The notes under the pieces: model-generated
What the model was told of the DNA's origin: nothing
Database searches by the model: none
What the model saw: the letters and a program-made list of their open reading frames with translations, nothing else
Shown here: positions 5,614 to 30,933 of the stretch, piece after piece
Numbering within the stretch: the first letter of the stretch is position 1
How the letters are laid out: every line of letters starts with the position of its first letter
Source of the DNA: Laburnicola sp. R22_1
Lineage: Eukaryota; Ascomycota; Dothideomycetes; Pleosporales; Didymosphaeriaceae
Assembly (NCBI GenBank): GCA_014281115.1
Contig: JACONQ010000006.1
Span: 248,001-312,000, forward strand
Direction: 5' to 3'
Length of the DNA: 64,000 nt
Position numbers and translations under genes: made by a program

Positions 5614-5677
5614 ATACCTGCCGTGTCACCTTGGTTAGAATCTTAACACGACGAACATCTTCAATACCTGCCGTGTC
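5614..5677 (+). repeat. Short retroposed repeat, family A, copy 1, with 14-bp direct repeats
   Basis: The 14-mer ATACCTGCCGTGTC occurs at 5614-5627 and again at 5664-5677. Between them lies a 36-base segment (5628-5663), starting ACCTTGGTTAG and ending GAACATCTTCA. The same segment recurs at 30.9 kb and, with one mismatch and on the other strand, at 19.7 kb, each time between its own direct repeats. This pattern is what an inserted sequence with a target-site duplication leaves. Confidence 0.8.
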
Positions 5678-6119
5678 TATTGGTGCACGCTGACTTCATC
5701 TCCCAAGGACCACCACTGGCCCAGCACTAGTACTCGAATCGGCAATGGTCATCCTCTCAGGCCTTCTCCGCCCCAACCGCGCCCCATGTTTCCAATTTCG
5801 AGCAGGATGCCTCGCCTGCGGCGCGACTGCCAGCAGTGACAACTGGGACTTATAAACTGCAATGGCGACCGTCCTGCCATGTGTGTGCCTTCCACCTGTC
5901 CCGTGTCCAAGTACTTCACTTACTCCTTCGTCTTTTTTTCTTCCAAAGGATTGCCGCAACCGGACCAGTCTTGTCCACCGCCCGTCGCTTCGACCTCTAA
6001 TAAGCTTATTATTACTCGAGCCCCCCTGCATACATATTGTACCTCAGCCGCCGCCCCCACGGTTCCGTCCAAGCGCAATACGGAGTTCCGGTCAGACTGT
6101 TTCATTGCCAAACACGGCA

Positions 6120-6125
6120 TATATA
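6120..6125 (+). promoter_or_regulatory. TATA box candidate for the PLAC8 gene
   Basis: TATATA sits about 97 bases upstream of the PLAC8 start codon, followed by a pyrimidine-rich leader. Position and sequence fit a TATA box; no other evidence is available. Confidence 0.4.
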
Positions 6126-6221
6126 GTCTGACTCCGAAGCCTCGCCCATTCCTTTGAGAAATCCCTCGATTTTTTTCATAGATCCTCTCTCACAAAGCAA
6201 CAACAACACAAGGAAGCAAAC

Positions 6222-6791
6222 ATGACGACCATCCAGAAAGAAGAGTGGCATCACTCGGGCTCGGGGTGCTGCAGTCCGATAGGCACTTGTACGTTTTTTT
6301 CCCGCATCCATGCACAACTTTGGGGAGAATCCAGCACTGACGATCAAAACAACAGGCTGCCTCTCCTGGTGGTGCCCATGCATCATGTACGGCAAGACGC
6401 GCCACCGCAAGAAGAACGACGGCAACATGCAAGGCTACTCGTGCTGCAACTCCTCCGTACGATTCAACCCCCAACCCCCCCCCCTCAACCCAGCCCACCC
6501 CACTAACACGTCCAACATCCACAGTGCATGGCCTTCTGCGGCCTCGTCTGCCTGGGCATCCCCTTCATCCTCCCGATGCTGAACCGCGGCGACATGCGCG
6601 CAAAGTACCACCTCAAAGGCAACGCGTGCGGCGACTGCCTGTGCGCATGCTGCTGCTCGCCGTGCGACTTGACGCAGCAGGATAAAGAGGTCGTGTATCG
6701 CGAGGAGGCGAAGCATTTGCTGCAGCAGCAGCCGGGCAAGGTCGAGGGCATGTATTATTCGCAGCAGCAGCAGCCGCAGTTTCATCATTAG
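6222..6791 (+). CDS. PLAC8 family cysteine-rich membrane protein
   Basis: Three exons, 6222-6288, 6356-6456 and 6525-6791, join in frame to 144 residues. The conserved PLAC8 layout is clear: CCSPIGTC at the end of exon 1 and start of exon 2, then WWCPCIMYGKTRH, a hydrophobic stretch CGLVCLGIPFILPML, and a distal Cys cluster, GDCLCACCCSPCDLTQQDKE. The tail is Gln-rich (QQQQPQ). Known fungal and plant members sit in the plasma membrane and are linked to cell size, calcium or metal tolerance; which of these applies cannot be told from sequence. Both introns have GTACGT/GTACGA donors and CAG acceptors. The family call is firm; the physiological role is inference. Confidence 0.9.
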
Positions 6792-7387
6792 GGGTTGGAG
6801 GGTGGTGATGTGGTGTTGGATGTTTGTTTTTTAATAGGGGATAACCGGTTTCGGTCTGCTTTTGTTGGGGTGGTTTGGGTGCATGGTGGTTGGATGGCAT
6901 GGCATGTACGTTGGGGGTTTGGGAGTTGCGCTTCCTGCTTGCTGGGTTGGTTGTTGTATCGAGATACCAAAATTGTTCTGTTCTCTTCACGTTTTCTTTT
7001 CTTTTCTGGTTGGGTCGTCTTTGTGAGATTGTTGTCCTTTCTGTTTCTCATAGGGAATAATAGGTAAATTCTTTCGCCGTGTTCGGGCGCTCATCGTGGT
7101 ACGAATTCAGATGCCATAAGGCGAAGATGGCTCCTCCGACTGGTAAGTCTCTCCTTACACGCACTCTTTCCGCGTCGTTATTCTACTCAGGCCCCTCTTT
7201 TCGTATTGCTATACTGTTCCATCTTTCTCGGGTCCTCGGTACAAATGCCAGACCATGTCCACAACACGCACGTACTTTTCGTTTTAAAGAGTAAACAACT
7301 GCAGACTGAAAGGGGTCTAAAGACTAACATACAATACCAATACTATAACAGAAACTCCGCTAACCCTTTTTGTCAACACCTTGAAAC

Positions 7388-7468
7388 GCTTTTCTGTGTC
7401 CACAACAGCAGGAGGGATTACTGCTATTATTGTTATCTTTTTATTAGAAACCTCTTAGTCGCAAAAAA
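7388..7468 (+). repeat. Short repeat, family B, copy 1
   Basis: This 81-base segment starts GCTTTTCTGTGTCC and ends CTTAGTCGC plus six A. It matches 11560-11640 with only two substitutions over about 75 bases. Flanks of the two copies are unrelated. Copy 1 shows no clear target duplication and its A run is short, so it is either the source locus or an older insertion. Confidence 0.8.
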
Positions 7469-8479
7469 GAAACCCCCCAAACCATAAGAAACTCACTATA
7501 TCCTACAAGAAAGCCAACAAGCAAACCCACTTCTCACCCGCCAGACTCCCCACCACCCCCCAAATTATCAGCACAACACTTCCCCAACACCCACTAATAC
7601 ACCCCCTAATCCTGACAACATCTCCCCATATACAACATCCCAAACCACAACACAACCCCCCATCACCACTTAGTACCGCATCCTCGCGACCCTCATTATC
7701 AACCGCGCAGCCCCTTCACACAGCACAGCAGCGCCATACACTCGCTCTACATAGGCGCGCATCTGCCCCTCATCAAGCATCAGTGAAAAGCTCGTGCCAT
7801 TGTAATAGTGAATCCAGCGGGGGCGAACGCGAACACATCATACATCTATCCCATCGTCGCTGGTAAAGCCCTCGTTATAGTCAGAGTCAGAGTCAGAGGC
7901 AGAGTCCAAGTCGACCGACCTAGGGAAGATGATTGTATAGGAAAAACTCAATCCATTTTCGTTCGTAGGAGGAGGAGGAGGAGGAGGAGTCGTTGCTGGC
8001 GAAGAAGAGCTCAACCAGCCGCGGCAGAGTGGGCCTGTGTGCCCCGTGGTGAGCCATTTTAGGAGGCAGGTTGGTTGTGCTAAAGGTGTGGGGTGCAGGT
8101 GGGTATGTCGCTGGTGTGTGTGTGTGATTGATTAGCTTGAGATTCGCAGAGGGATTGTACTAAGGATGGACGCTTCGGGGTGCTGTTTGTGTGCTGAGAT
8201 GAGATTCGTACCGTAGGTCTTTGGATATCACACTGCATTTATGCTTCTCTGTGGTGCGCTAGAGCAAATTTGGTACATTATCAAATTGTTTTCTTGCATC
8301 TGTGGTTATGCTCGGTTCGCAACGCAGGGGATAACGGTACCACAGCTTGGGTTAGTTTTAGCTTTCCCAAAGAAAGAACATCGCCACACGGTCTGATAAA
8401 AGCACAACCTGTAATTTTCTTGTATGAACATTATAAGCTATTCTGAAACAAAAGCAACAATACAGGCTAAGCCGGGATA

Positions 8480-8634
8480 AGCGTTACAACCAACATGTTT
8501 TTGTCAGTAGAGGCGCCGAAATTTTTTTATTATTTTTTTACCGGGCGATATGTGACTCACAAGGAGCCGAACTAAAGTTCAACGCAACTATACTTCCATC
8601 ACATGCGACTCTATCTTATACTTTGCCGGCTAAG
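8480..8634 (+). repeat. Dispersed repeat relic, copy 1
   Basis: Two blocks, 8480-8517 (starting AGCGTTACAACCAACATG) and 8608-8634 (starting ACTCTATCTTATACTTTG), match 27077-27114 and 27223-27247 in the same order and orientation. Several differences are C-to-T in the 27-kb copy. No coding capacity is visible; it is the remnant of an unidentified repeat. Confidence 0.6.
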
Positions 8635-9364
8635 CTGGGATGCCTCCTTCCACTGGGGTTGTCAGTGGCTGATGATATACGTGACTGCATCCCGTTACGA
8701 GCATAAGTAGTAATGGCACATGCTAGTTATCTGTCAGCCAAAGTACGTAGGTACAGCTAGCTCATAGCAGCATAGCCAGCATTGCATATACATTCACATG
8801 TGGGTAGTTGAGTTACGAGGAGGGAATATCAACATGGGTAGATGGTATAACTATTTTAGAAATGGAGTCGGTGGAATGTGGCATGCTCACTTCGAATTCG
8901 CCGTTCTTCGAAGAAAGTCGGCATGTACAGGCAGCCGCACGACGATAGTCAGGGTACGTTTGGTCTGTGCATTATCCAGCACGGGGTCACACAGTGTTTG
9001 CCTTTTTTTTCCAGCACTGTATAACGTCTAACACAACATCAAGCCACATCTTTCATAACGCCGTCTGCGGCTCCATCGCCGTACCTTGGGTACTTGACTG
9101 CACCCATGGTACAGATCGCCTAGCCGACACAATACCTTGGTTCGACAACTAGAGTGAAAGAGAATCACAATACACTCCACAAAATTGCCCATGGTTCCAT
9201 CAACAAATCGCGCAGTGAAAGCCCCCGCGTCACTCACCACATCTTCCCGCATCAACCTCTCACCTCCCACCCGCCTTCTTTATAAACCTCTCCCCTCCAT
9301 CCGCACCCCATCTCCACCCCCGAACTCCCAGGTCCAGGCCGCATCAACCCCTCCCTCCCTCCCA

Positions 9365-10705
9365 ATGGCGGACCAACAAACCCCCCAAGACCGCGCAACC
9401 ACCTTCCTGCAAGACCACACATCGACCGTCCCCGCCACCGACCTCCCCCTCCACGACGAATGCCCCATCTGCCTCGACACGTACACGCTCGAGCACAGCG
9501 TGCGCGTCAACATCCCAGGTTGCGGCCACGTCTTCGGGCACGAATGTCTCACCGTGATCCTGACCGACAACCCGAATCTGGTCAAGAAGTGTCCGCTCTG
9601 TCGCACCGTGTGGGTCCCGGGTGCTGAGAATGACCGTTCCGCCATTCTGGACGACTTTGCGCGCTGGCCGGATCGTCGTAGCATGCTGCAGTTTCTCCGC
9701 CCTACGGCGCATGTTGAGCGCCCGCATCCGAGACAGGGCTTTGCGGTGCCTAGGGTGGCGAGGTCGCGTCCCGCTGCTGGTGAGAGGCAGATGCGGAACG
9801 GGGACGTCATCAATCTTGTTGACAGCGATGAAGATGGCAACGTACGTATTGTCCGAGTCTTGGCTATTGTTTTTCTTGTCTAATTCTCAGCGTAGGTCAC
9901 AATGGAGAGCTTCAACCAGTACAGTCGCGACATAGCCGATATCCGCTCGCGCGCTCGCAACACCCAACTCTCGCGCAAGCAGCGTAAAGATGAGGAAAAC
10001 GCCCGCAAGCAGAACCAGAGCCAGAACGCTGAAGGAAGTCGCAGCGGACTCGCGAGGGCGAACTCCCAACATGCAAATGCAGACGCTGACCAGCCCACAC
10101 CGCGACGCTTCGAGGGCCTAGCCTGCCTCAACGACCCGCCTATCCCCCGCTATCCACACATCGAGAACATGATCCGGCGAAACTGGTACACGGCGTCTTC
10201 TCAGAACGGCAATGGAAATGGACATGCCAACGGAGAACCACCGCCAGCCCGCGCTGCCGACATCCCCACTGGCGCCCCACGACGCGTCACTCCCCTCTCA
10301 GCCGACTTCCTCAACCTGCAGCGTTCCAACGCTCAGCGGGCCTTTGTGTCGCCCGCTCCGTTGTTTCTCCGCCATGCACCGCCGCCGCCGCCGTCGCCGG
10401 GTGCCTTCGTCCTGTCGCCGAGCCCCATGCTCGCGTCGCCCAGCCCGGATAGCAGCGACGCAGAGGCGAATCGTGTGCAGAAGGCTCGACTTGACCGGCG
10501 CGAGAAGGAGCTCAATGAGTCGGAGAAGCGGCTGGGCGAGCGGGAGCGGGGGCTAGATGAGCGGGATAGGGCGTTGTTCCAGCGGGAGCAGCGTGTTGCG
10601 CAGCGGGAGCAGGGCGAGACGCGGGCGGCGCAGATGAGGCAGAGGCAGTTGCACGAGATGGAGACGATGTTTGCGAAGCACCGCGACGAGATGCGGAAGA
10701 TGTAG
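9365..10705 (+). CDS. RING-finger protein with C-terminal coiled coil (putative E3 ubiquitin ligase)
   Basis: Exon 1 is 9365-9841 and exon 2 is 9896-10705; the 54-base intron has a GTACGT donor and a TAG acceptor, and the product has 428 residues. The Met at 9365 (MADQQTP) is preferred to the upstream 9185 Met because it lies just before the domain and 79 bases after a TATAAA. The RING is C33-x2-C36, C53-G-H55, H59, C61, C76-P-L-C79; spacing around H55/H59 is slightly off canonical, as in many fungal RING variants. The middle is disordered and Pro-rich (HAPPPPPPSPG). Residues of about 330-425 form a strongly charged coiled coil (REKELNESEKRLGERERGL). E3 ligase activity is inferred from the RING; the substrate is unknown. 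Confidence 0.85.
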
Positions 10706-11358
10706 GGGTGGGACGGCGACGAGCGTGTGAGCGTGTGAGCGTACGAGGAAGGTTTGCAGCAGTGCGTGGTTCCTGCTATAGTGTAGCACCTACCCTGTGA
10801 ATGCACGTAGAGAGTGTTAGATGCTCCATAACATAACAAAGGGTATGATACCTTCACCTCTTTCTTCTCACCTTGCCATGAGTCTCATGCCACACCTCAC
10901 TGCCACGCCCACGTCCTCCATCCAAAAAACCATCCCATACACCCAAGCTCTTCTCACCCCCTCCACTCCAACCCCCGATCTCGCTCTCGTTCTCGCTCTC
11001 GCTCCCAATCCCCCATGCCGGCGACAAAATCCCACACCGTCCCCCGTCCCAACACGCAAAAAAAGATCGGCAACCCCGGTCGCCCCCATACCCCATAGGG
11101 TATCGCGCCATCTGCAACATGGCTTCCACGTGGCCTGTCAGAATTATGGGCCGTGCGAAGCTAGCCAGTAAGCGAGCTTACACACTAGCATACATACATA
11201 GACTAGTGTAGCGTCCTGCATCGGTGCATGACAAGGCTGAACGGAAAATGGGAGAAAGAGCGGTGGGGTGGATATGACCCGAGCACAGGAGGGGAGGGGA
11301 CGAGATGTAGTAGTTGCTCTTTCAGCGGATGGAATGTAGATGCATGTAGGCGGTGGAG

Positions 11359-11486
11359 GAAGTAGGGAAGGGAGGAAGTAGGGAAGGGAGGAAGTAGGGA
11401 AGGGAGGAAGTAGGGAAGGGAGGAAGTAGGGAAGGGAGGAAGTAGGGAAGGGAGGAAGTAGGGAAGGGAGGAAGTAGGGAAGGGAG
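11359..11486. repeat. Tandem repeat, eight 16-bp units
   Basis: Eight near-identical copies of GAAGTAGGGAAGGGAG follow one another without spacers, then degrade at 11487. The purine strand is entirely A/G apart from one T per unit. There are no spacers, so this is a minisatellite and not a CRISPR-type array. Confidence 0.95.
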
Positions 11487-11543
11487 GAAGGAAGGGACGG
11501 CTGACTGACACAGACAGGATTCCTCACTTTCACACCCACCGCT

Positions 11544-11663
11544 ATACCTTATTCACAACGCTTTTCTGTGTCCACAACAGCAGGAGGGATAACTGCTATT
11601 ATTGTAATCTTTTTATTAGAAACCTCTTAGTCGCAAAAAAAAAAACCATACCTTATTCACAAC
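11544..11663 (+). mobile_element. Retroposed short element (family B) with perfect 16-bp target duplication
   Basis: ATACCTTATTCACAAC occurs at 11544-11559 and 11648-11663. Exactly between the two copies lies an 88-base insert (11560-11647): a body nearly identical to 7388-7463, then an 11-base A run, then CC. A terminal A tail, a long perfect target duplication and a shared body are the established hallmarks of LINE-driven retroposition of an RNA. The body has no open frame. The source RNA is not identified; TTTTT inside it argues against a simple RNA polymerase III transcript. Confidence 0.85.
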
Positions 11664-12784
11664 CACAGACAGCAGCGCTACCATTCCATTCTATTCATGC
11701 TGTAGAAAACATATCTTCTCTCAACGTGCACGCATAGAAACCCCGCCCAACCAGCTGCCTCGCACATACCCAACCTACTGTACCTCTCCTCTCCTCTCCT
11801 CTCAGCTCTACACTCCCCCCCCGTACACCCAACCCAAGCCCATCCAAGCTGAAATCCACACCCATACGCATGGTACCTAACCTAAACCACCTACGCCCAC
11901 CCACCCCACATATTTCCTTCGTTCGCTTACACGACTTACACGCCTAGAACAATGCTTACATACTTAGTACATGTATCTATCTATCTAGTCATGCAACTAC
12001 ACATGTACATGCCCACTCATGGCATGGCTAACACCATAGCCTAGGGAATGCGATTCCTGCTTTGGACATGGCTAGTTGGGTAGATATGGGTGGCCGTGAT
12101 GTAGATAGATAAGCGAGATGCATGCGTGTAAAAGCGTGTTTAGTAATAGATGGATGAATGGATAGATAGATAGATAGATAGAGGTATGATATATGTCTAT
12201 AGTTGTGTGTATGCATGTATGACGGTGTATATACAACTGAAGTCAAGAATCCATCTATACCCTAGGAAACAACAAGAAAACATATTCCCAATCACAGTCC
12301 AATCTCCAAAAGAAAAAGAAAAACCTGCCAACGAACAGACACAGACACACACCAGTCCATGTCCGCACGTCCACACATCGCTTATACGACCACCCAATCC
12401 CACCGTAGAAAAAAGACGCCAACGCCTTAGTACAAAACACCAACGCCAACGCCAACGCTAAACAAACACACCATGCTATATCGCCGTCGGTACCAAAGAA
12501 AGGTACGAAAGAACCCAAACTAATAAGGCTTATACTTTTGATCCCAGGGGGATAGCTTGACCAGCACGCAGAACCCACAAGCAAGCAAGCCAGGAAAGAA
12601 ACCAGACGGCAAAACCCGACGGAAAGTGTGCGAAGCGGAAAGGACATGTATTTACGATAACGAAGGCGGTGGCGAGAAAGACAGCGCAAGAGGAAGCGAG
12701 TGGGGTATCGTTGAAGGAAAGACTTTTACTCCATGTCGAAAAGGGATGATGAAGCGCCGGCGTGCTACCGTTCGGGAAATGCAA

Positions 12785-13663
12785 TTATCGGCTCATCAGC
12801 TTGTGTTGGATCTGAGTCAGAGACGGGTCTTCGGCGAGCCATTTGCCCTGTGAGGCATCCTGAGCGCGTAGCGTGTTGTCGACGTGTGTGTCGGTGATGG
12901 CGAGGAGTTCCTGAGGGACTGCATTAGTAGAGGATTCTCAATGGCTATGGACGCTGAAATGTAACGGGGAGAGGACAGAGTAGAAGTCTGGATTGACGTA
13001 CTAAGCGCAGGGTGCTGTCGACTGCCTGGAGGGCCGTCAAATGGCTCGCGTTCGGCCGTTGTCCTCGCAAGATGCTGTTTCGCGCCGTCATCCACCTCTG
13101 CCCTGCATGAGCTCGCAGATATGCTCTTTGGCATTGGAAGCGGCGAACTGCAGCATCGGTGATGATCCTATCTCGGACATCAGCCTCGCACTTTGTTGCC
13201 TTCCATCACGTAATCTGTCCATCCATTCTTTCCAGATCATGTACTCAGACAGGGCACCAAGACAGGACAGATTGACAGAGGAGGAGTGCACTCACGCCTT
13301 CAATTGTTGTTTCTCGCGCTCCGGGTCACCACCGGGTGCCCCGCTGCTGGCGGCGAAAGGCGTTGCGAGGATGGTCTGGGCTTCGCTTGTGCATTGACGG
13401 AGCAGTGAATAGCCCTCGAGATAGTATTCCTCTGCCGCAGGGGAGGCGCGTAGTTGGCTGAGGTAGTACTGGAGATTGCGGAAGTCGCCCATGATCTCCG
13501 TGATGCGAATGGCGCGCGCATCGTTTACTGTGAGGCAATTGATTTAGTAAGCATGCTCAATTGGGAGTGCGTTTGATGATCTAGTAGGAATGGATGGAAG
13601 TATGGAACGGAACTTGAATGAAAGTAGGCTGGAGTAGGGGGTAGGCTTACGACCGTCTGACAT
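12785..13663 (-). CDS. Small four-exon protein, function unknown
   Basis: Four exons keep frame: 13663-13651, 13527-13296, 13125-13002 and 12910-12785, giving 164 residues beginning MSDGLNDARAIRITEIMG. The donors are GTAAGC, GTGAGT and GTACGT; the third exon uses a CAAAG acceptor, the weakest boundary, chosen because it alone joins QQLKA to AYLRAHAGQRWMTARN in frame. The protein looks helical throughout, with conserved-looking patches FRNLQYYLSQLR near the start and DTHVDNTLRAQDASQGKW near the end. Its layout suggests a small subunit of a larger complex, but I do not recognise the family and assign no function. The first exon codes for just four residues and one base. Confidence 0.65.
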
Positions 13664-14650
13664 GGTGGAGTGAATTGAAGATGGCGAAAGGTTGAAAAGA
13701 GTGGTATAAGGAAAGAATGAAAGTGAGGATGCTGATATGAGGCTTGACTGGTGTAGATGTCTAGTCGAAGGCAGCGTGGCGACCGTTATATAACGAAGCT
13801 CAACGGTGGTTCAAGTGTAGTCGCAAGGCACGTAGGCTGCTCCCGCCGCCAGTGCTTGCCGAGCGATCCACATTGAGACCTGAGCAATGCTCCAGCTGGC
13901 TGTGCTGCAACCATTCAGCATCGCAAGGGACTGAAAGGCGTTACGATAAGGTCTAAGAGTAGCATCCAGGGAAGGAGTTGGAGAGATCCGACAGCTAGGC
14001 GTCGGCTTCAAGCAAAACGACACGACACCGACGTCGACTCCAGCTGTCATGGTACACTTGCAAACAGTTAGCTGGACCTGCCCGTGGTATTCAGCGCTGC
14101 CTGAGGCGCCACATCGCCGGGACAGGACTAGCGGCGCTGCTTATTCGGCAAGGCTCAAAAGCCAAGCTGTGCGTTGCAGCCGCATCGGAGGCGGCGATTG
14201 GCTTGCATCCTAAATTAGGCGGTGCGGCTTTGGCGGACTCGATGCTGAGTGTGAACCGAACGGCGAGGCTTGGGAACTCCGGCAGAGCCTCTGCCGAAGC
14301 GTTCATCCATCGTCGAGTGTCAGCCACACGCGGCTGTGCTGGCCCTGCCGGCCACTGAGATGACGTCGCGCCATGTGTTCCTGCGTGGGAGCAGCTGGAG
14401 TGAGAATGAAGGCTGTCATTGACGTGAGGCTAGTAGATACACACCGCACAAAGTCACGGCTGAAGAGCCCACCTCATCCCGCCCCGCCACATTACAGGCG
14501 CGCAGCACATGCAGACTGAGTCGTCTGGTGCTTGATACTGCGCGCTCCGGCTCGCCGACTGGCGTATCAGAAATCCTCCGTGTTTCCGTGCTACCTGCTG
14601 GCTCGCCGCCATCGGTTCCGCCCATCGACCCAAGTCCCCGGTGACGGGTC
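13664..14650. other. Gene-free stretch
   Basis: Just under 1 kb separates this small gene from the proteasome gene's stop codon. Nothing with coding character, no RNA gene and no repeat longer than a few bases was seen. GTTATATAACG near 13789 is palindromic and could serve as the TATA element of the minus-strand gene. Confidence 0.5.
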
Positions 14651-15639
14651 TCAGTCCTTATCCGCAATCGACTGCAGACGTTCATCGATTTCTTCCTCGG
14701 TCAAGGCCCTGAATTGGGGCTCCGAGCCCTCCTCGCCGTTGGCTTTGGGACCCCCGACGATGCCCACCTCGAGCTCGCCCATTTTGAAGTCAACTGAAAG
14801 CACTGAGCTCAGTGCCGTGATACCAAGCTCGACCACTTCCTCCCAGCTACCCTCAGCATGGTCCTTGTTCTTGAGCTTCTTCTCCAGGAAATTGAGTGCC
14901 TCCTGCGTCTTCGGCCCTGACGCCGTGGCCTTGTAGCCGACATAATAGCCCGCGGGGTCGCACTTGTACAACTGGGGGCCAAATTCCGAGTCCAGCGAGA
15001 TGAGCGTGGTGGCTACGCCTAATGGTCGCATGTACGCCTGTCATCGTGTCAGTGCCGCCAGGTCTCCGTCTTCCGCTCTGTCGCAGCCCGACTTACCCGC
15101 TGGGTGTAGACCTGGCTGATGTTGGCTATCCGCTTGGCCAGCACATCGCAGGGCATCTCGTATCCAAACTTGTAGCGGAACTCAGCAGCCTCGCCGCGCG
15201 CCCGGCTCACAGAGGCTCTAGCGTCCGCTATCGACCCCGTCATGACGCAGCCCACCGACGGCGACAGCTTGAAGATGTGCGAGACGGACGTGGGCTCGAT
15301 CAGCTTGTCCTGTATAGAGCGTCAACCACTGTCCAAGACCCGGGCTAGGGTTGCAGAACATACGGGCACCTTCTTCTGCGAGATGACTACCGCGCAGCTC
15401 TTGCCCCGCACGCCCACCGATGTGATGTTCGCCGCCGTGATTGCCTTGAATGCATATTCTGGAGATGTCAGCAAGCCGAAGGGAGGCCGGAGGTGGGAGG
15501 CACCGCACCGACTTGGTATAGGCGGCCCTGGTCAGAGAAGATGGTGATGTGTCTGTCGTAGCCTGCGCTTCCTGGATGCAGAGAGCGCTGTTAGCAACGT
15601 CTATGCCGCAGCTGCTGGAGCTCACAACGCACCAGACAT
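14651..15639 (-). CDS. SCL1: 20S proteasome subunit alpha type 1 (Scl1/PSMA6 class)
   Basis: Five exons, 15639-15633, 15571-15509, 15458-15364, 15309-15097 and 15037-14651, join without frame error to 254 residues, the usual length. The alpha-subunit N-terminal signature is present ([19 protein letters not shown]), then [54 protein letters not shown] and [13 protein letters not shown]. These are diagnostic of alpha-1 (yeast Scl1) rather than other alpha subunits. It is a structural, non-catalytic subunit of the outer ring of the 20S core and part of the gated entry channel. The first exon is only seven bases long. It is divergent from the WKF gene, sharing a promoter region of about 390 bases. 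Confidence 0.96.
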
Positions 15640-16028
15640 GACGGCGGCGGCGGCGGGTCTTTTGTATTTAGGTGCCGGGGGTTGTTACTGCGTAGCTGGC
15701 GGGCAGGTCGAGGAAATTGGACGTAAGCAGCGGGCGGGAGCGGGCGAGCGTGTCGATGATGCCGGTCGTCCTGGTGCTGTTCTTACGCGTTGCGGAAGCC
15801 TGGAGCTGTCTCTGTCGCGGCCACGGCGATCGCCGGCTGTGGCAGGTGCGATTGGCCCGCGCCACACTAGCGCCACCTTGGCATCGTCCAAAAAATTCTG
15901 TCTGTCGCCTCTCATTTGGCCTGTCGATACATGACAACAGCTACACCGGCACGACGAGCTGATTCGGGCGTGAGCGATGGAAAGACGCCGAGGCATACTG
16001 TAGAAATCTCGCCTTTTTCTCTTCCAAC

Positions 16029-18102: not shown

Positions 18103-18206
18103 TTGGACAAATGCACCCCGCTCACTATTTACATGCACGCGCTCCTGCCTTTGCCGCTCCTGTCTCTGCTCTCAGTCTGTCCCAAGTCAGTTTTTATTCC
18201 GAAACA

Positions 18207-19469: not shown

Positions 19470-21001
19470 CCCCATGGTCAGAGTTGCGATTGTGGGGTGT
19501 GATGTGCGAGCTGCCCCGCATTATCAGCCAAACAGCAAGATGGTGACGGAGAATTCTCAAGGAAGCTAGTGCGTGTGCTGTCAGTACCACAGACTCCGGC
19601 GACCGGTCCACGAAAGTAAGGCTTATTGCCCAGCTGTCGACCAAGCCGCCTTGCCTTACTGTATTACTCAGATGATAGGAACGCCAAGGAGTTCATGGAT
19701 CGAATGTGACGGTGTATTGAAGATCTTCGTCGTGTTAAGATTCTAACCAAGGTCGAATCCGCACCATACACAGAGAGGAGTAAAACAGGAGGCACTAAAA
19801 CCCAGTACCTAGCACACAGTGTTGTGACGGTGTATATTATGAGGATTATGCAGGTGTAAGAATCCGAGGAATTTGATTGGGCGCGCGGAAGCTTTAACGC
19901 AACGATTTTCATTCCACTTCAATAACAGTCTTGAACTTGAGCTTCCGGCTCTTTGTTGAGGAGCACTATGCGGGCTTTTGCGCTTAAGAGAAAGATCAAG
20001 GAGTGCTTTTAGGATTGGCGTCAAGGGGATAGCATAGTAAGCATACACAATCGCCTCCTATGGCGGGTTTAAATTCGCAGCGAACTGGCAGTGCTTCTGT
20101 AGCGTCAGGAGAGCAGGATTCTCCCCACACGGAATCCATCGATGTGCTAGCTTACAAGCAAAAGCGCTGATCACACCCGGGCTAGGGACTACAATGGTCA
20201 CGGGGTGATATCGAATGTGCGATGCTAGTAAGGTACGGAAGATTGACAACTGTGGAGAAGATAGACTAATAACGCTCCATAAATATATACGAGACCCAAG
20301 CAGACTGATTCACTTTGTCTACCTATAGGCATCACGATTCCCATTTCCCCGGATTTTCTACGGAAGATATTTCGACCGCTTCGCCGGAGAAATTGTGCAA
20401 CACTGACCACCAAGCAACTTGACAGGCCCTGCATATTACACCACCGACTCTCAAGCGTACAATAACACCGCATGCTCGCTCTGGACCGCGCTGCAATCCC
20501 TGCTAACGACGTTGTCGAAAAGTGGATTTCTGAGTGGTGGAGCTCGGTCCTTCCGCCGAAGATCGAAACGAAACATGGAAATCCGCCCAACGGCGAGGCA
20601 AGGCCAAGCCGCTAAGCCCTATTCCTGTGAGGTGTTGCTTGCCTCTTTCAGGTCCTTTTTTATATCCAGGGTGGAGCTAAGTGTTTGAGCCAAGATGATT
20701 GTATTATCTGGCTAGGTGAGAATTGGTCTTCTTGGGGGAAACGGGTGGCCAATCCTCGAAAGTGTCTTGGCTGTGGGAGTGGGGGAGACGGGGATCAGAC
20801 GATTGGGGAGTGGTTCCGTCAGTGGGAGTATGGCTTGGTGGAGCGCGGTCTTGGAGGTGTGTTGTTATGGGAAAGAGGGGAGCTCATGATGCGTATAAAG
20901 AGTTGGTTCATTTCCCCCCACCGCTCTGCTTCTTCACCATCGCTTTGACGGACTTGTCCTACTGCACATTCAATACATCATAGCCTAGGTCGCACGCAAC
21001 A
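19470..21001. other. Intergenic, contains family A repeat copy 3
   Basis: No gene is supported across 1.5 kb. The family A short element is at 19705-19835. TATAAA at 20894-20899, about 105 bases before the pectate lyase start codon, is a likely TATA box and is followed by a CT-rich leader, a common fungal promoter arrangement. Confidence 0.5.
19705..19835 (-). repeat. Short retroposed repeat, family A, copy 3, with 13-bp direct repeats
   Basis: TGTGACGGTGTAT is at 19705-19717 and 19823-19835, enclosing a 105-base insert (19718-19822). Read on the minus strand, the insert ends with the same 36-base segment as copy 1 apart from one substitution, and extends a further 69 bases upstream. It is the longest copy. 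All three copies share exactly the same end, next to a direct repeat beginning AT, and differ in length at the other end. Confidence 0.8.
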
Positions 21002-21770: not shown

Positions 21771-22804
21771 GTGGTAGTATGGGTTGGATATTTTGTGTGC
21801 TGTTTCTTGATGAGTATGAGTTTGGCTTTGGGTTATGTGGTATATACTTTACCTACGTCACTATCAAATCGATCAACGATGACTGTCTCGAAAACATGCT
21901 CTTCGCGTTCGTTTTTTTTTCGTACTTTGGCTATTGAATCTTGGTTGTGCTGTTAAGTCTCATAATCTGTAAAAGGTTGAGTTGACTATCCGCGGATATG
22001 AATGAATGAAAACATTCTCTGCGATGCATTAGGGTTTGTTACACATAACGAAGTGGGAAAGCACTCACCTAGACCGACAGAATTGTTTAATATGTAATGC
22101 CCAGTCAGTCTCTGATGCAATTCAGAGTGGGGGTATCGCATTTTTCTCTGCCTGTCGAGAATATCTGCACGCTGGTCTAAAGGCGGGAGGCTTTTAAAAT
22201 ACTACAGCAGACTGCGAGATGGAACTATTAGCCGATGCACAGGAGCAGGAGCACCTGTTGTGTCTTCTCAAGCGCGCCGCTAGGCCTGAAGCGGACCTCG
22301 GCATCCCCCCTGCCAATTATTGATACGATGCGTCCCAACCGCCACCAAGCTGCATTGCAACTATATTTGCTTTCTTCTTCACTCTTTGTTTCACACTTAT
22401 TCGCGCTGCCCATTCTTCTGCATTGCTATTTACGTTTGTTGAACGTTCAGAAGACGATTGCGCATTCGCCTGGCAAACTGCGGCAGCCAAAAGACCTGGC
22501 GTGACATCCTGGCTACATAGCCACGCTACACTCTCCATCGCCTGTTTTCATCGCCTCGCTTTCATCGCCCTCTGCTTTTGACAGTTCCTGAAACGCGCCG
22601 CAAATTTTCTCATACGAGCACGACGTCTGCGAGTGGCGGGGGCTCTAGTGTAGCGATCCGGTCGAACGCCTTCGTGCGCATCGGTTCGCGCAACCATTGT
22701 CGTCGTGTTATATAGTCGACCTGGCCGCTTGTTCCCCCTCCCTGATTTCATCCTTTCAGCACGAGTGGGCTCGGGCGCTACCACAATAGCTTGCCGTGAG
22801 TATC
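21771..22804. other. Gene-free stretch
   Basis: About 1 kb between the pectate lyase stop and the next start. No gene, RNA or repeat is evident. Terminator-like T-rich sequence follows the lyase stop within 150 bases (TTTTTTTT near 21911). Confidence 0.45.
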
Positions 22805-25800
22805 ATGGCAGAATGGGGAAGGAAAGACCAATTCGAATTACGAGACTCGGAGATTGTCCTGCTCCAGAAGCTCAGAAAGCTGGAGGCTGGATCAGATGGG
22901 GATTTCAAAGAACAGGCCAGCAGATTGTTTGGTCATCCTGCGCCAAACTGCACGTAAAGTTGCGCTAATAGTCTGATAGGAAACACACTATAACCTTGCA
23001 TTGTTCTGTTAATGATCGTCTTCTCGACATTCATCCTGTTGACGCGGACAACGCTGTCTTCGACTGCGCTGAAGTGGGACGCGAATTACAGAAAAAGCTA
23101 CTCTCGGACGAATGGGCCGAGGAAGCAGGAGCATCTCTAAAAGACGATGGGGCGGGTGAAGGGCAGGACCTAAGGGTTGAAAGCGCAGCACTGCAGTCTA
23201 ATAAAACTGAGGTCGACGAAGAGCCTGAGCTTGCCGGTGCCTGGGAAGAAGTCTCTTCAGACGTGATCCCTGACTACGTCTCAAATGTTACATTCAGCAT
23301 ACCTGCGGAAGAATTAACACCCAAACGTCAAAAAGAGCTAGAAGAGCAGTTCCCCGGCGTCCTGATCCAGATCTGTCCTTCAAAGGAGTGTGGTTCCCAT
23401 GCTGCTATGGTCGAAAACCCCAACGGAGTAGACACAGCAGGATTGGAGCTCCACAAAGGCTTGCATTCAACGCTGCCCATTCAAACTACTATCGAGGCAC
23501 CCCGAGCTCCGAGGGCATTTCGGATAGCACGACAAGCGAATGATGAGATAGAAAGTCATCTGCTAGAGTTCGCAGAGTTCATGACCCAGTACCCGCCCAT
23601 TGGAGCATTCGAAGCCGATTATGATGATTCGGTACCCTGGTCTGAATTGTCCTCGCACAGGAAGTTCGATATTGCGCACGCTCGACTAATACAAAGCGGT
23701 CGCTATGGGGAGACGCGCGATCCCAGCAAACGTTGTACGAGGTGTCAAAAACGCGGTTACACTTGCAAGGTTTATCAACCTCGCTTTATTGAAAAGAGCA
23801 GGTACAGGGGATTGATAGTACTTGGCGGCGGGTGTCAAAATTGTAGGCTGCTTGGCGAGGCGTGCGAAATCCCACCAGGTTACGAAAGACTTGGCTCAGG
23901 AACAACCAGAAACTGTTCGAGCTTTGCTAAGCGTTTCGGTGCTACGAGAGAGTTCTCGGTGGATCGGTCGAGCGAGGCCACCGTTACAACACCAGAGCCG
24001 CCCAGACGAACGCCTACTTTAGCCACTCGGATGACCAAGGATGATACCCTGTCATATGCAGATATCGAAAACATCAATGACGATCTCCGCCTCGGCATGA
24101 ATCGCGTCGATGTGATTCATTCGATTTACGACAGTTGGTGTGTGCGTGGCAAAGGGAACAACATCCGTCGCTTCGATCCGCATCAGCATCATGAATTAAA
24201 GTATTACTATATCAATCTCGTGGATCTATACATCATCGCCCGCGAGAAGCAGCTCGCCGATTTGGAGTACGCAACCTTGCTCCAGTTCCAGGTTACCACC
24301 ATCAAGGAGGAATCGCCTAATATCGATGTATGCGTGATGAAGGCATTTCGCTATCTTCCAGAGCACTCTCCACTGTGTCGTTGGATGTCCATCTTCTTCT
24401 CCTCCGTTTGGGACATTCCAAGAAATGGCGATTACAGTCACCTCTGGGGAGAAAGCAAGAGTGCAGATCGGTTCCCTGTTGCTCTGGGCAAGTTCCTAGC
24501 CGGTGTTGAATCTGCACGGGACCCGTATAGATCTGAAGTGGGTAGTGAAGAGACGGTAATCGAGCGATTTTGTGAAGTCCATGAGCACGCCGTGGCCTCA
24601 GACAAGGAAGTCAGATGTAAACAAATGAGGAATCGCCATCTAGCATACAAATCACCAAAGTGGGTGTCGGGGGGAACGGTGGAGTACCACATCAGCAAGA
24701 AAAGAAAGATGAGCGAACTGGTTCGCCGCGGTAGGTGATTGAGCTTTCGGTAGTTGTTTTGTCTTACGCGTTCTTTAACAACTTGTCGTTGCGCGCTCAA
24801 TGTGTCTTCTTTCCATCTCACAGTCGCGACCACACCAGCGAGATACAGCACTATATATCGCTTTTAACCGAAGGAATTACGATACTCAACAACAGGCTCT
24901 CCGCAGATCACGCCGACTCCCATTGGCTCCATTCCTTTGGTTCTAACTGACCGCACTGAGATGTCGCTAATTGTTTAGATTCGTCTTCTAGCCCGAAAGT
25001 CACTCTCATATCAGTAATCCAATTTTCCACGTCACCACTAGAGGAAGAAGATGCAGAGCCTGTGAACCCCGTCAGCCCAGAGAGTGATGCTATTCAGTCG
25101 CTAGAGTTAGACGCAGCACCCCACGCGCAGCTGGACCATGCCCAGTCTCTTGAACGTGTCTCGTGGCGTTACACCCCATCAGCCCGCGTACAAAGCATGC
25201 ACAGCACCTGGGGTAAAACGGGTAGAATCCCGCCATCGACTCAACATGATCTGCCTCGACAAATTTCGACAGCATTCCCTCAACCTGGGCAAGGCAAAAC
25301 TGACGTCAGGTACGAGGATCTGTTAGACCTGTTCATCTATGCGAAGGAGCGACGTCCTAGTCCTAAGTTTAAAGATGCACTGTTGCGAGAGTGGAAAGAT
25401 GTTGGTGGTACTGTGGCAGCCGCGTTGCGTCGCAAGGCAGCTAGAGAACTGCCCGCAGAGCACGATCTGGTGCAGTACCTGGATAGTGGGCCAGAGCTTG
25501 AGGCTGTCGAGTTGGGAGCGGATTTGAGCGCTAGTGTGAACGGCGGGGCTAATGATGATAGTGACAACGACGACGACGACGACGACGACGACGATGATGA
25601 TGATGATGATGGAAATGACGATCCTGACTACAATAACGATAGTGACGACGAGGACGATGACGACGACAACAACACCCTCTATAGAGACCCAACACCAGAC
25701 CCCGAACGAATGTCGAGAAGGACTGCTTCGACATCCATGGCCGGTGCTACTCCCAGCGCGCCCCTCACCAACGCGAATCTCACAGACTCAAACACACCAC

Positions 25801-26189
25801 AACCCAGTGCAGTCTACAGCTCCAAATCGACAGACACCACTACTCGATCTTCCCTACTACGGGGGGGCACAAAGAGACAACAATCCCAACCAGATACCCC
25901 TACCCCATCAACCCCACGGGACAAACGCGCCTGCGCCACCACCACTACCAGACTTGCCCCTAGCGACGCCAGTATGAGACAGCCCAGCATGCCCCTCTCG
26001 TCTCGCCGTGCGGCATCCCACACGACGGCAGGGGGAGCAGGGACACCACGACGTCACAACAATGGCGAGCACGGCACGCCAGGACGGCGCAGCGCTCGGG
26101 CGAAAGCTGCGCCGCCGGGGTTTTTTAACGAGAAGCCTGCGAGGAGGAACTTTGGGGCGACGATGTGGGGTGGGTTTCCGACGGGGTGA
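22805..26189 (+). CDS. Large protein with split Cys6 zinc-cluster-like motif, BTB-tail-like segments and acidic tract
   Basis: The core exon is 22980-24730. A second intron, 24731-24978 (donor GTAGGT, branch-like CTAACTGAC and GCTAAT, acceptor TTTAG), joins it in frame to 24979-26189. A short first exon, 22805-22953, starts MAEWGRKDQ and also fits the frame, but its intron would be only 26 bases, so the 5' end is uncertain. The full model is 1,036 residues. Near the middle are C-x2-C-x6-C (RCTRCQKRGYTC) and, 25 residues on, CQNCRLLGEAC, resembling a Zn2Cys6 cluster with a long loop. After it, YYINLVDLYIIAREKQLADLEYA and AFRYLPEHSPLCRW resemble the region after the BTB core in fungal BTB proteins; YEDLLDLFIYAKERRPSP repeats that theme later. 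A run of 15 Asp follows. A nuclear or adaptor role is inference only. Confidence 0.6.
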
Positions 26190-27353
26190 ATGTTTGGGGT
26201 AGGGAGGCGTTGGGTGGCTGGATGTGGTTTTGGGGGGGCTGGATTGCGTAGGTGGGTTTGATGGGTGGTGGTGGTGGTGGATATTAAGGTACTTTTTTTA
26301 GGTTGGGAGGTTGGATGCTGGGGATTGTTGTTGAGTGGAGGAAGATATTTAACATTACGGCCTTGTTGCTATTAGGTACTAACTATAATATGTATTCTTA
26401 GCATTTCGTCGTCTTCTAATGCCGCTATATACCTCCCTCCTGGTCTAGGTATGCTGTGTATAGTATAAGTAAACTTTATATTAGGGCTAAGAGCTTATAG
26501 GTATTAGAGGTGTAAGTAAATTTAAACTATTATTATATTGTTAGGTAGTATTTAGGGTTAGTTTTTAATTAGAATTAGGTGCTGTACAATATACATAATA
26601 ACCTTCTATCTTAATCTACTTTAACCTTAAAGAAAAAAAGGGGTTAAAAAAGGTATTTGGCAAGCCGACCACTATTTTATATAGCCTAGGCTACCCCTAA
26701 GAAAGCAGGGTTTTTCATTAGCTACCTTAGCAATAGTCCTGTAGAATGGTCCTGTCCCAAGACGTCGCGGCAATGTTATAGGCAACTACGTCGGCATTCG
26801 CCATGGCCGCTTCGAAATATAGAAGAGAGATAGGAGATGTTTGGGGAAATAGATGCTGCAAGGCCAAGATATGTGTTTTTAAGCGTTTTTGGCCAGATTA
26901 CTCGGCCCCTTGCGGTCGTCGATTTTACTGCGTAAAAGGCCGTGCTACACACAGCCCACTTAGCTTAACAATTTCCCTTTCCTATCACAGCTGCTTTTCT
27001 TCGAGAACTCGACGATTTCGAATTACGTCACATACAATCAGACTGCGATCCTCAACGACTAAAACGTGCTTCAGCTAGCGTTACAACCAATATGTTATTG
27101 TTAGTGGAGGGGCCAAAAAAAATTTCGCGCGATATGGGGGCTCTGCTTTTTTGGTTATGTTATTTGGGATGAAAGCCTTTTTCGTTCTACCCCTAGGTAG
27201 ATAATTTAACAACACATATATAACTCTATATTATACTTTACTAGTAAGAGGAGCTATAGTAATATTAAAAGCTGCTTATAGTGTGCGCTAGCATGCCTCG
27301 AACAGACAACTACTATTTAGATAGCAACCTATCTAGTTTATTATAGTAAGTTC
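26190..27353. other. AT-rich gene-free block
   Basis: From about 26350 the sequence becomes AT-rich with frequent TA dinucleotides, unlike the flanking genes, then recovers near 26750. This composition is the usual mark of RIP in ascomycetes. It holds the second copy of the dispersed relic repeat (27077-27247). No gene is visible. Confidence 0.55.
27077..27247 (+). repeat. Dispersed repeat relic, copy 2
   Basis: Blocks 27077-27114 and 27223-27247 correspond to 8480-8517 and 8608-8634. This copy has T where the 8.5-kb copy has C in several places (AACATG versus AATATG, GTCAG versus GTTAG), as expected if it was exposed to RIP. It lies just upstream of the OPT transporter pseudogene. Confidence 0.6.
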
Positions 27354-28694
27354 TTGACTTTGCTATACTTATCAACGCTCACACACAATATAGATGGATT
27401 CGAAATCGATGTGCTTCAGCCAGAAGCGCTCAAGGAGCAAGGCATCCCGTATTTTGCTAAAACCTACGCGACCTTTCTCCTTACTAATAATCTTGCAATT
27501 ACGTTAACTATATCGCACCTACTTCTCTGGAATTGGGACGATATAAAGACTAGGTATGCTTTTCTCTACCTAAGCAACTTGCGAAAGATCTTTAATCCCA
27601 ACTCTTGGAAACCGGACTCCCACAAATCTCAGCCAAATTCTAATCTAAAAAACAATAGTAAGACTAACCCACACTATCAGCTTATACGCTGTTAACCAGA
27701 ATGTCTAAGTTGGTGGTACATTACCGTCTTAGGCGTTTCCGTTATAGTCGGCCTTTTTAGCATTTACGCCGCTAATTCGACCCTCCCATAGTATGGCTTC
27801 CTCATTAGCGTTGCCGTATCTGGCACCTTCATCCTCTTTTTCAGCGCTCAAGCGGCACTTACGGGCTATCAAGGGAACGTGCAGCCGCTAGTGCAGATGT
27901 TGGGGGGATATCTACACCCTAGTCAACCGCTAGCTAACATATACTTTACTCTTTTCGGGTACAACCCAGTCATCCAAGGCATCAGTCTAGTGTAAGATTT
28001 AAAATTCGGACAATATGCCAAAGCTCCGCCTCGCATAACCTTCACAGCACAAGTAGTTGGGACATTACTTAGTGCTGTTAACTACATAATGATGGTTCAG
28101 ATTACGACCAATCAGCGGGAAATCCTGTTTTCGATCCAAGGCACAAATATCTGGTCTGGACAGAATATCCAGCAATTTAACCCTCAGGTAAGCTCGCTCT
28201 ACTGCTATCTTTCAAAAGGCTAAACATATACACGAAAGGCTATCGCCTGGGGGGCCCTCGCAAAAGAAATGTTCTCTCCCGGCTCCCGGTACGTCGTCGT
28301 CCGCTTCGGGCTCCTTGCCGGCTTTCTTGTTCCTATCCCGCTCTTCTGCCTCCACCGGAGATTTCCCAGCCTCCGCATCTTCTCTAAGATCAACACCCCC
28401 ATCATACTCGCTTACGCCGGCTTCCTATCTGTCGGTATATCCAGCTCCATGCTTTCCTATTTCCTCATCGGCTTTGCCAGTCAATTCGGGCTACGCCGCT
28501 ACAAGCCAGGGTGGTTCGTCAAGTACAATTACGTGCTGGCAGCGGCGCTCGATAGAGGAACCCAGGTCCTAGTATTCCTTCTTACATATACCGTACCAAA
28601 ATATTGGGGCAATAACGCGGATGGAAACTTCGATTACTGTAGGAGAGACCCAGGTACTGCTGCGAATGCAGCGGGTCCGGTGGACACCGACTGA
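27354..28694 (+). pseudogene. Oligopeptide transporter (OPT family) pseudogene, 5'-truncated
   Basis: A long stretch of one frame is clearly OPT: FAKTYATFLLTNNLAITLTI, LWNWDDIK, SWWYITVLGVSVIVGLFSIY, QAALTGYQGNVQPLVQMLGG, FGYNPVIQGI, then ITTNQREILFSIQGTNIWSG. An intron (donor GTAAGC near 28189, acceptor AAAG before 28239) leads to AIAWGALAKEMF, NTPIILAYAGFLSVGIS and RRYKPGWFVKYNYVLAAALD. Three in-frame stops break it: TAA 27693-27695, TAG 27789-27791 (where the family has Trp) and TAA 27993-27995. The N-terminal third or more of a family of about 750-800 residues is absent. OPT proteins are proton-coupled importers of small peptides, siderophore-like or glutathione-type substrates. The TGG-to-TAG change fits RIP, and the gene sits next to AT-rich DNA. 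Confidence 0.88.
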
Positions 28695-29131
28695 GTCTTA
28701 TGCAGTCACACTATAGATAGCTTTGTGCACCCCGTTGTCACTCTAGGAGGGAGCAGTAGGCAAGCCCTGAAAATATACAAAGTACTGTTGCATCCAAGGA
28801 TATCACCATCATTGATGTTGTTCTCTAATCGATTAAGAAATATCGCTGGACATATACTGGCGCTGTGAGGCGCAACTAGCCAATTGACATTAAGCCATAA
28901 AGCTCAACCCTATTATTGGTTGGAGCCGAGCACAAACCGTGTTTCTTGGAGGCTATACCCAGAATACACGTCACCAAGAGGGCTCAAACTCGTGGGTGAT
29001 ATGGCACGCCTGATCGGTGTTCACTTGCGACCAGAATCAAGGAACAGTAACTCCATATATTGCAATTTTCCAATGCTAGCAGAGGCTAGGTATGCAAAGG
29101 CAGGCACGTGGTAAAACGGTGCTCTACCATA
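28695..29131. other. Intergenic gap
   Basis: Between the OPT pseudogene stop and the 3' end of the minus-strand secreted-protein gene; no feature seen. Confidence 0.45.
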
Positions 29132-29786
29132 TTAAAAGACGTAAAACATTCCCATGCCAGAGACCAATGCTAGTAGAGTTATACTGAACGCTCCAACACC
29201 TGACACGTCCGTCCGGGCTCCCAAACCTGGGCTTCCAGCTGCTTCCGTTGCTTGGCCCTGGGACGTCGCTGTAGCTGACACCGTCACTGGTTTCGTTGCT
29301 GACACGGTGATTTGCGAAACGAGAGCGGTGGCGGAGGGAGAGTAGGATGTGCTAGAAAAGGAGCAGGCCGACATGATATTGTCCATATCTACTCATTGGA
29401 GAACTTAGGGTTAGCCGTCATCGGCCCGTAACGTATCTAGAGTCACAAAGGGGAAATCACTTACCGTCCGTGGTCCCCTCTCCATTTTGTTGTATGCAAC
29501 TGGCGCAAAGCGCTGCGATAGAAGCTACGTCGAAGCTCTTGTTCTTGCAAATGCATTGAGCTTCGATGGCCTCATCCGGTTCTTCGCCGAGATCATCGGC
29601 GTCGTCATCCTCGTCGTTCTCGAGTTTGCCTGGATCGACGTCACAAGTGTTTGACAACTAAACAATCGGCTGGCAAATGGTTGTACAGGCGCTTGGTACA
29701 TAGGCAGCAGCAAGTTCTTCGGCAAAAGACGTAGAGACGAAGAGAATGCTCTGGAGGAGCGTAACTGATAAAGCGGAGAAGTGCAT
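29132..29786 (-). pseudogene. GPI-type secreted Cys-rich protein interrupted by a single stop codon
   Basis: The coding exons are 29786-29465 and 29388-29132 (donor GTAAGT, acceptor TAG), about 191 residues if read through. MHFSALSVTLLQSILFVSTSFA is a signal peptide. The mature part has CTTIC, then SNTCDVDPG, an acidic Asp/Glu tract, QCICKNKSFDVASIAALCASC, a Ser/Thr-rich stretch and a hydrophobic C-terminus (GVGAFSITLLALVSGMGMFYVF) typical of a GPI-anchor signal. The frame is identical on both sides of TAG 29658-29660 at codon 43, so the simplest reading is a nonsense change from CAG (Gln), a C-to-T in a CpA context. A TATAAATA-like element lies about 80 bases upstream. It could be a recent loss, a natural polymorphism or a read-through product. 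Confidence 0.7.
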
Positions 29787-30615
29787 GGCTTGAAAATTTG
29801 TATGATCCGGAGCTGGTAACAGGAGTTTCTTGATGAGAAGTACGTGGAAAAACATTGAACGCAGCCTTATTTATACATTCTTTCTGTTCCCCGGTTTGGA
29901 AACGTTTTTTGGGCAGTACGTTTGATGTCATGAAATCAAACTGATATGCTACAGTGGCGTCAAAATTCACGAACTCTGCCCAGAATATGCTAAGTCTTGC
30001 CGAGACCTGTCACGTCGTCTCCGCCAGTTCTGACCTCCTTAGCCAATGCGGTGCCCAATGGCTTGAGGCTATAAACCCATAGCGTCGCGACAACGTTTCT
30101 CCACCGTTGGGGGAGATTCCTAGTGGTGTCTCATGATTGGACGTTTCGCTGCACGCATGTATTAACCGAGCAAACGATTAAAGTTTAACAACCTGTTAAT
30201 AACTCGGTTTACATTTTTCTCCACACTTCCGGCCAAAGCGCACATGAAAATGCGCCAAAGCCGCTTGATAAGCTATTTTTGTTCCATGGTCGGAACTGTT
30301 TGATGAAGCGAGATATGTACGTACCTAGGTACCCTTGTTGTTTACTATACAGGTACATTGTATATTGAAGTCACAGGAGGAGGGGGCCTAACAACCAGCC
30401 TAGGCCTAGCGCAGGATGTGGAGTGGAGACCCAACCCCGCCCCCACCCTAGGTCGTCAGAAAGTTGGTTGTACGAGGGGTATGTTTAGGTACCGGCACGG
30501 CACAGTCACACGTGATGGGCACAGCATGCATATTCCTAACGCTATAGAGTAAAGCTTTGGAGAGGGAGTTGGTAGGCGTGTTGAAGATGGATAGTTCGAT
30601 TACTGATATACATAT

Positions 30616-30662
30616 CTCCGGGGCTAGCTCATATACCTAGGTACATACCTCCGGGGCTAGCT
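30616..30662. repeat. 14-bp direct repeat
   Basis: CTCCGGGGCTAGCT is at 30616-30629 and 30649-30662, separated by 19 bases that are themselves rich in TACCTAGGTAC-type sequence. It could be a local duplication or a small insertion footprint. Confidence 0.8.
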
Positions 30663-30873
30663 ACCTCGGTACATGTGGTATAGCAGTACGAGGGATCGTG
30701 CAGTCTACGGGGGCCTACAGCCCACATGGGTATAAAGTACATATACCTCTGCATCTCCCTGACCCGCCATGATGTCCACGCCTCGCAAAACATCGAACGA
30801 AGCTTAAAAAACAACATCGTTTGACCATACGTCACGTCACGCCACGCCACGAAACAACACACCACCCACCCTC

Positions 30874-30933
30874 ATTCATCCCATATTCGACCTTGGTTAG
30901 AATCTTAACACGACGAACATCTTCAATTCATCC
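30874..30933 (+). repeat. Short retroposed repeat, family A, copy 2, with 8-bp direct repeats
   Basis: ATTCATCC at 30874-30881 and 30926-30933 encloses a 44-base insert (30882-30925). The last 36 bases of the insert are identical to copy 1, and the eight before them (CATATTCG) share ATTCG with copy 3. The direct repeat is shorter than at the other two sites but again begins with AT at the constant end. Confidence 0.75.

Follow-up and report, generated by a model that had tools for sequence, protein, structure and literature searches.

Very short repeat-flanked inserts in a Laburnicola contig are probably truncated copies of a 1,230-base non-autonomous retroposon

Three very short inserts of 36, 44 and 105 bases, each lying between its own direct repeats, occur in a stretch of 64,000 nucleotides of the ascomycete Laburnicola sp. 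R22_1 (contig JACONQ010000006.1, positions 248,001 to 312,000; "the window" denotes this whole stretch, and its positions are counted from its first base). They are probably 5'-truncated copies of one non-autonomous retroposon of approximately 1,230 bases, which would be mobilized by a long interspersed nuclear element (LINE) and be subject to pauses and jumps during copying. The family to which they belong is genome-wide and has members far longer than the inserts in the window. In the genome searched (63.9 Mb, 26 contigs), a 31-base pattern from the 3' end, with up to 3 mismatches allowed, has 438 matches as against 0 for the reversed control pattern, which excludes chance. The longest copy, termed el24 (L024/L061, contig C10), is a natural copy of 1,230 bases that was used as the reference, and all three inserts cover only its 3' end:

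5614..5627, unstranded: 5' target duplication of insert 1, 14 bp, ATACCTGCCGTGTC
5628..5663, plus strand: insert 1, 36 bases, equivalent to el24 1195-1230, with the rare GAAC variant
5664..5677, unstranded: 3' target duplication of insert 1, ATACCTGCCGTGTC
19705..19717, unstranded: target duplication on the 3' side of insert 3, 13 bp, ATACACCGTCACA (element on the minus strand)
19718..19822, minus strand: insert 3, 105 bases, el24 1127-1230 plus one base, in the recurrent 104-nt truncation class
19823..19835, unstranded: target duplication on the 5' side of insert 3, ATACACCGTCACA
30874..30881, unstranded: 5' target duplication of insert 2, 8 bp, ATTCATCC
30882..30925, plus strand: insert 2, 44 bases, of which 30887-30925 is equivalent to el24 1192-1230 (BLAST), with the rare GAAC variant
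30926..30933, unstranded: 3' target duplication of insert 2, ATTCATCC

The initial annotation had described a 36-base segment shared by the three sites and bounded by direct repeats peculiar to each; its coordinates and those of the repeats all check, and the insert lengths, as measured from the repeats, and the common 3' end are confirmed. This end is CTTCA in all three cases, and the minus-strand 36-mer of insert 3 departs from the other two by a single mismatch (GAAGATC versus GAACATC). In insert 2, positions 30885-30925 appear family-like by eye, the leading CAT is unmatched, and the BLAST match opens at 30887. With respect to truncation, the copy at 19718 begins at el24 1127, and inserts 1 and 2 begin at about 1192-1195. 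The GAAC variant of the 3' end, searched as an exact 21-base pattern, is present at 3 places in the genome, namely inserts 1 and 2, which lie on the same strand 25 kb apart, and C1:2797213 (L037), where the match begins at el24 1192 and there is no clear target repeat; the variant was seen in none of the longer copies.

Members of the family reach upstream to varied points of the element, some being full length, some truncated and some internally deleted. They were studied in three samples with different biases: L001-L030 are the best matches to a 141-base query around the 105-base copy in the window and are biased toward long and similar copies; L031-L060 are the first 30 exact matches listed for the 3' pattern, and are free of length bias but biased toward young copies and contigs C1-C5; L061-L090 are the 30 top-ranked among 40 scored matches to the 5' end (181 candidates). 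el24 itself runs from a CTCCCCC 5' start (TTCTCCCCC as delimited by its target repeat) to GATCTTCA at its 3' end, and is flanked by 15-bp repeats, which are copies of ATACTTATTTATTAC. Among its open frames of at least 60 codons no reverse transcriptase was recognized by eye. The longest open frame, of 252 codons (el24 269-1024), is antisense to the retroposon RNA; its ATG-started part of 174 residues yielded no homologue in one protein search, and the differences between L024 and L062 within it fall 5, 4 and 7 at the three codon positions with no enrichment at the third, so there is no evidence that the frame is a gene. An Rfam scan of the whole element at E values up to 5 recovered no tRNA, 5S, 7SL or snRNA, and its 2 matches are both to microRNA models and far below gathering. 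The element was also considered as an introner, a reading dropped because its ends are not GT...AG. Substitutions in 15 copies are predominantly of the C>T/G>A type (1266/1954).

Target-primed reverse transcription by a LINE-type machinery is well supported, because target duplications are present in 18/30 length-unselected copies, scored as a flanking repeat of at least 11, as against 1/90 controls in which a flank was paired with that of another copy, and because three empty paralogous sites were recovered. One of the 18, L036, lies inside a simple repeat, and its target repeat is hence not surely placed. Across all copies examined, a repeat of at least 11 bases was found in 38/80; among these 38 the repeat measures 14-15 bp in 31, starts with ATA in 35 and is preceded by T in 35, pointing to a T^ATA target, and the element ends in CTTCA in 36. 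The length of the target repeat varies (12-19 bp). The empty sites, 3 among 41 queries made of joined flanks, are ungapped with a single target repeat each:

Window 8534..8633, plus strand: empty paralogous site of L008, 93/100 identical, no gap, one copy of the target repeat
Within L065: empty paralogous site of L011, 115/122 identical, ungapped
Within L080: empty paralogous site of L060, 54/62 identical, ungapped

An uninterrupted version of the L060 site is also present in L016. Left out of the count were L007, for which the surrounding repeat has numerous relatives that align with gaps, together with L012 and L028, whose matches were to themselves in simple repeats. The empty sites reveal that AT belongs to the target and that the element itself stops at CTTCA. 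At three places, C1:1189463 (L033), C13:1274175 (L079) and C21:595653, the last nine bases of the element occur twice at the 3' junction, an apparent slip at the onset of copying. The proposal of the initial annotation that a LINE-type enzyme inserted these sequences by target-primed reverse transcription thus stands, being upheld by the target duplications, the tail-less constant 3' end, the 5' truncation, the paralogous empty sites and the T^ATA preference; flanking duplications and empty sites, as sought among copies inside this genome, leave insertion unrefuted. Dispersed repeats matching the flanks of other element copies occur in the window at 8534-8633, 27136-27218 and 38293-38545.

Ordinary LINE copies combine a constant 3' end and target repeats with variable 5' truncation. 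The present copies differ from these in that the same few exact positions reappear as 5' ends, and in that the element is devoid of a reverse transcriptase. The length-unselected sample comprises 28 simple truncations and 2 internally deleted copies (L045, L047), and the starts of the former, entered by hand from alignments, include 8 at 1126-1128, 7 at 1191-1199, 2 at 1146 and 2 at 1048-1049. A maximum of 6 in a 3-nt window was reached in 20,000 uniform draws over 900-1199, compared with the 8 observed. Recurrent truncation ends are thus shown statistically, at 1127 and in clusters near 1192, 1146 and 1049. In the similarity-biased sample, 20/30 copies start at 1121-1130 by eye, and L004 and L011 also begin at 1049. 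Patterns placed at three points along the element have 438, 339 and 273 matches; these counts were not used to gauge how copy number declines toward the 5' end, since the patterns differ in their sensitivity to mutation. The 1127-1157 pattern has 46 exact matches, and at 15 of these the next upstream pattern adjoins (0-1 mismatches), which agrees with a strong stop between the two.

Comparison over el24 1127-1230 of 26 copies starting at 1121-1127 with 38 longer ones revealed that the short copies share the alternative bases of the longer copies, for instance CC in 14 and TA in 12 at 1211-1212, and that 11/26 are identical to a longer copy (7 to L011/L024, 3 to L053 and 1 to L002). Given these shared haplotypes, the 1127 truncation goes back to several templates, or to a start site that several copies contain. 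Hence, the 104-nt copies are probably not a separate short family, although some short copies could themselves act as sources. The earlier suggestion that a short RNA gave rise to what would be among the smallest retroposed units is not borne out: the inserts match the 3' portion of an element of 1,230 bases, which is also present in full-length and internally deleted form, and several haplotypes of the longer copies recur among the 104-nt ones.

The fold computed for the whole el24 RNA contains a predicted stem of 41-45 pairs which joins 68-122 with 1051-1104. Pairing probabilities exceed 0.9 for most of 73-119 and are only 0.5-0.6 for the outer 68-71. The duplex of the two arms is predicted at -51.5 kcal/mol, as against -28.9 kcal/mol in 500 shuffles (standard deviation 4.2, minimum -43.0), and L024, L062, L067 and L072, among 20 copies tested, retain it at 4 or more standard deviations. 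Internal deletions were found in 10 copies of the 5'-end sample, with 10 different junctions that show a 0-2 nt overlap or one extra base; their 5' parts end at 101-148, their 3' parts start at 971-1079 (nine at 1022-1079), and 8/10 have kept a clear target repeat. An eleventh such copy, L084, was identified by eye and has its tail broken by another insertion. Most of the cut points, like the stop at 1049, lie near the inner edge of the predicted stem (122, 1051).

These features, taken together, suggest a scheme in which a putative LINE enzyme encoded by the same genome would nick DNA at T^ATA and copy the element RNA from its 3' end (...GATCTTCA), resulting in target duplications that are mostly 14-15 bp long. 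Pausing at set places would then produce the recurrent short classes of 104 and about 38 bases. Alternatively, near the end of the 3' arm the enzyme may jump onto the inner portion of the 5' arm, from which it would continue to the 5' end of the RNA and so produce the hairpin-like copies of 253-385 bases. As judged from the predicted structure, reverse transcription might therefore stop at, or jump across, folds of the RNA itself, with the 1127 stop left unexplained by the fold.

Several observations weigh against this scheme. A LINE bearing the 3' or the 5' end of the element was not found among 30 loci with the 5' end and 95 reverse-transcriptase places. A clear target repeat is lacking in 12/30 length-unselected copies and in 2/10 of the deleted ones. 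The stem was predicted from the youngest copy and has no covariation support because the changes are mainly C>T/G>A, and in 6/20 copies (L080, L082, L083, L086, L089, L090) the duplex is within 1 standard deviation of the shuffles or weaker. The commonest stop, 1127, is situated 22 nt beyond the stem on its 3' side and coincides with no helix edge in the predicted fold, which also poorly explains the stop at 1146. The deleted copies were gathered with a 5'-end query, so that the acceptor (5') side of their junctions is a biased sample and the donor side is not; moreover, the internal deletion of L077, from 667 to 1019, does not fit. Simple hairpins were considered as the cause of the 1127 and 1146 stops and are unsupported by the predicted fold.

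The precision of the start at C1127, its prevalence in the similarity-picked and hence biased sample (20/30 at 1121-1130) and the failure of the predicted fold to account for this commonest stop would all suit an alternative in which the 104-nt copies are a true short interspersed nuclear element (SINE), copied from a discrete short RNA that is either transcribed on its own or released by cleavage and whose exact 5' end is 1127, the other lengths being by-products. We regard this as unlikely, given that the 104-nt copies are not a single lineage, their haplotypes being several of those found in longer ones (which an internal promoter in each copy could mimic), that further recurrent stops exist, that the Rfam scan recovered no tRNA, 5S, 7SL or snRNA, and that L020, L009, L008 and L025, which start at 1121, 1122, 1125 and 1125, hold upstream sequence of the long element. 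The heavy mutation of the copies, together with junctions of 0-2 nt overlap or one extra base that are compatible with end joining, could instead suggest that the internally deleted copies arose by deletion in the DNA of resident copies rather than by template jumps; since the 10 junctions all differ although the cuts on the 5' and the 3' side are each concentrated close to an inner edge of the predicted stem, and since the element retains its two ends, such an origin appears still a little less plausible. The retention of both ends is likewise a property of miniature DNA transposons, but TTCTCCCCC and GATCTTCA do not form an inverted repeat with one another, and the 5'-truncated copies with target repeats, the varying length of these repeats and the empty sites do not suit such elements; this origin, or one by chance repetition, against which the lack of matches to the control pattern speaks, is scarcely credible.

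A further alternative is that the family is a short internally deleted element (SIDE) of an autonomous LINE which shared both its ends and has been lost from this genome or mutated beyond recognition. SIDEs that have the 5' and 3' ends of a LINE and are moved by it are described (PMC3414825), and the precise 5' end TTCTCCCCC combined with LINE-like insertion marks would be expected of one. Nevertheless, 27/30 of the best 5'-end loci have the element's own 3' part downstream (BLAST), and the remaining loci are interrupted: other insertions break L081 and L084, and a nested, distinct LINE breaks L076/L091. On reading, no LINE genes were recognized after the 5' end in L081, L084 and L064. The nested LINE, here termed LINE-A, is the sole LINE that was read nearly in full; it lies inside an element copy in L091 (C1:2555550-2562800), and its interrupted reading frames encode endonuclease, reverse transcriptase and RNase H domains. 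It was considered as a parent sharing the first 118 bases of the element, and was rejected since another of its copies, L104, starts at GAAAAAACACC and since element bases 103-118 flank it on both sides in L091, indicating a nested insertion. Unlike the element, it ends in CCAA/CAAT repeats, and a query with this end gave 15 matches, 9 of which cover nearly the whole query. At two sites its 15-base target repeats, determined by eye, are AAAAGCCTCAGCTCC and AACAACGACGACGAC, and not T^ATA. Comparison with its reverse transcriptase located 95 LINE-like places in total, 8 at 82-100% identity and 87 more at 23-42%. Candidate open frames of LINEs in this genome are located at C4:763519, C13:279710, C22:1361115 and C23:1282461. 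Only 1/43 of the 5'-end places lies up to 9 kb upstream of any of these on the same strand, and this is the one in L091; none of the 100 listed of the 438 3'-end places lies up to 9 kb downstream of one. Taken together, this makes derivation from such a LINE rather doubtful, and transposition of a non-autonomous element by a LINE of the genome is the reading that we favor.

The nearest precedent found is the work on MINE of Magnaporthe grisea, in which chimeras of WEIRD RNA and the MGL LINE arise when the enzyme switches templates, at sites that recur and have predicted hairpins upstream of them (PMC2104539). The two systems have in common fungal LINE-type copies in which a complete 5' part is fused to a 3' part that is itself 5'-truncated, junctions at recurrent sites and similar target repeats (10-20 bp in MINE), the likeness being one of architecture and not of compared sequences. 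They differ in that MINE fuses two different RNAs at GCC*A/U, whereas both parts here come from one element, in which no LINE sequence was recognized and whose junctions lie close to the inner edges of a long predicted stem. The SIDEs of R2 and R2/R1 in Drosophila (PMC3414825) and Persaeus/Zenon in Lepidoptera (PMC6740152) are similarly non-autonomous, retain both ends, are moved by a LINE in trans and include internal deletions of several origins; for SIDEs, the autonomous LINE that has the same two ends is known, whereas no such LINE was found for the present element. The breakpoints of Zenon are flanked by short direct repeats (PMC6740152), and those of the element by complementary arms. 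Fungal SINEs, namely Mg-SINE (PMC2104539) and AfuSINE2 (PMC5063351), are comparable in being short and non-autonomous with target repeats, but the present unit has no small-RNA head (Rfam) and is 1.2 kb long, with short copies that look like truncations. A literature search found nothing on panhandle-linked template switching and internal deletion in retrotransposons of the non-long-terminal-repeat class, and in a search for preferred truncation points the MINE study alone was judged relevant.

Elsewhere in the window, positions 61723-62952 on the minus strand hold an open reading frame of 409 aa belonging to the DDE_1 superfamily endonucleases, likely a DNA transposase. Another open reading frame of the window shares 80% identity with a protein of Kalmusia, and its further named matches, at 73-75%, are in Didymosphaeria, Paraconiothyrium, Paraphaeosphaeria and Bimuria, so that this one protein points to a fungus of the Pleosporales.

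We tentatively propose, as a possibility falling somewhat short of even odds, that the RNA of the element steers its own reverse transcription: the long stem joining its ends might halt the enzyme at fixed points or let it leap over the stem base, so that identical short classes and minimal copies resembling hairpins would be generated time and again. The 5' truncation of retroposons is often viewed as random loss of the enzyme from its template. The point at issue is whether RNA structure sets where target-primed reverse transcription ends or jumps, and the exact recurrent stops and 10-11 separate skips near the inner edges of the predicted stem, in one element with hundreds of copies, make this a testable case. 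It also follows that very short repeats with target duplications are not necessarily independent families. If true, copying steered by RNA in this manner would be, for retroposons, an analogue of defective genomes whose form is set by RNA structure.

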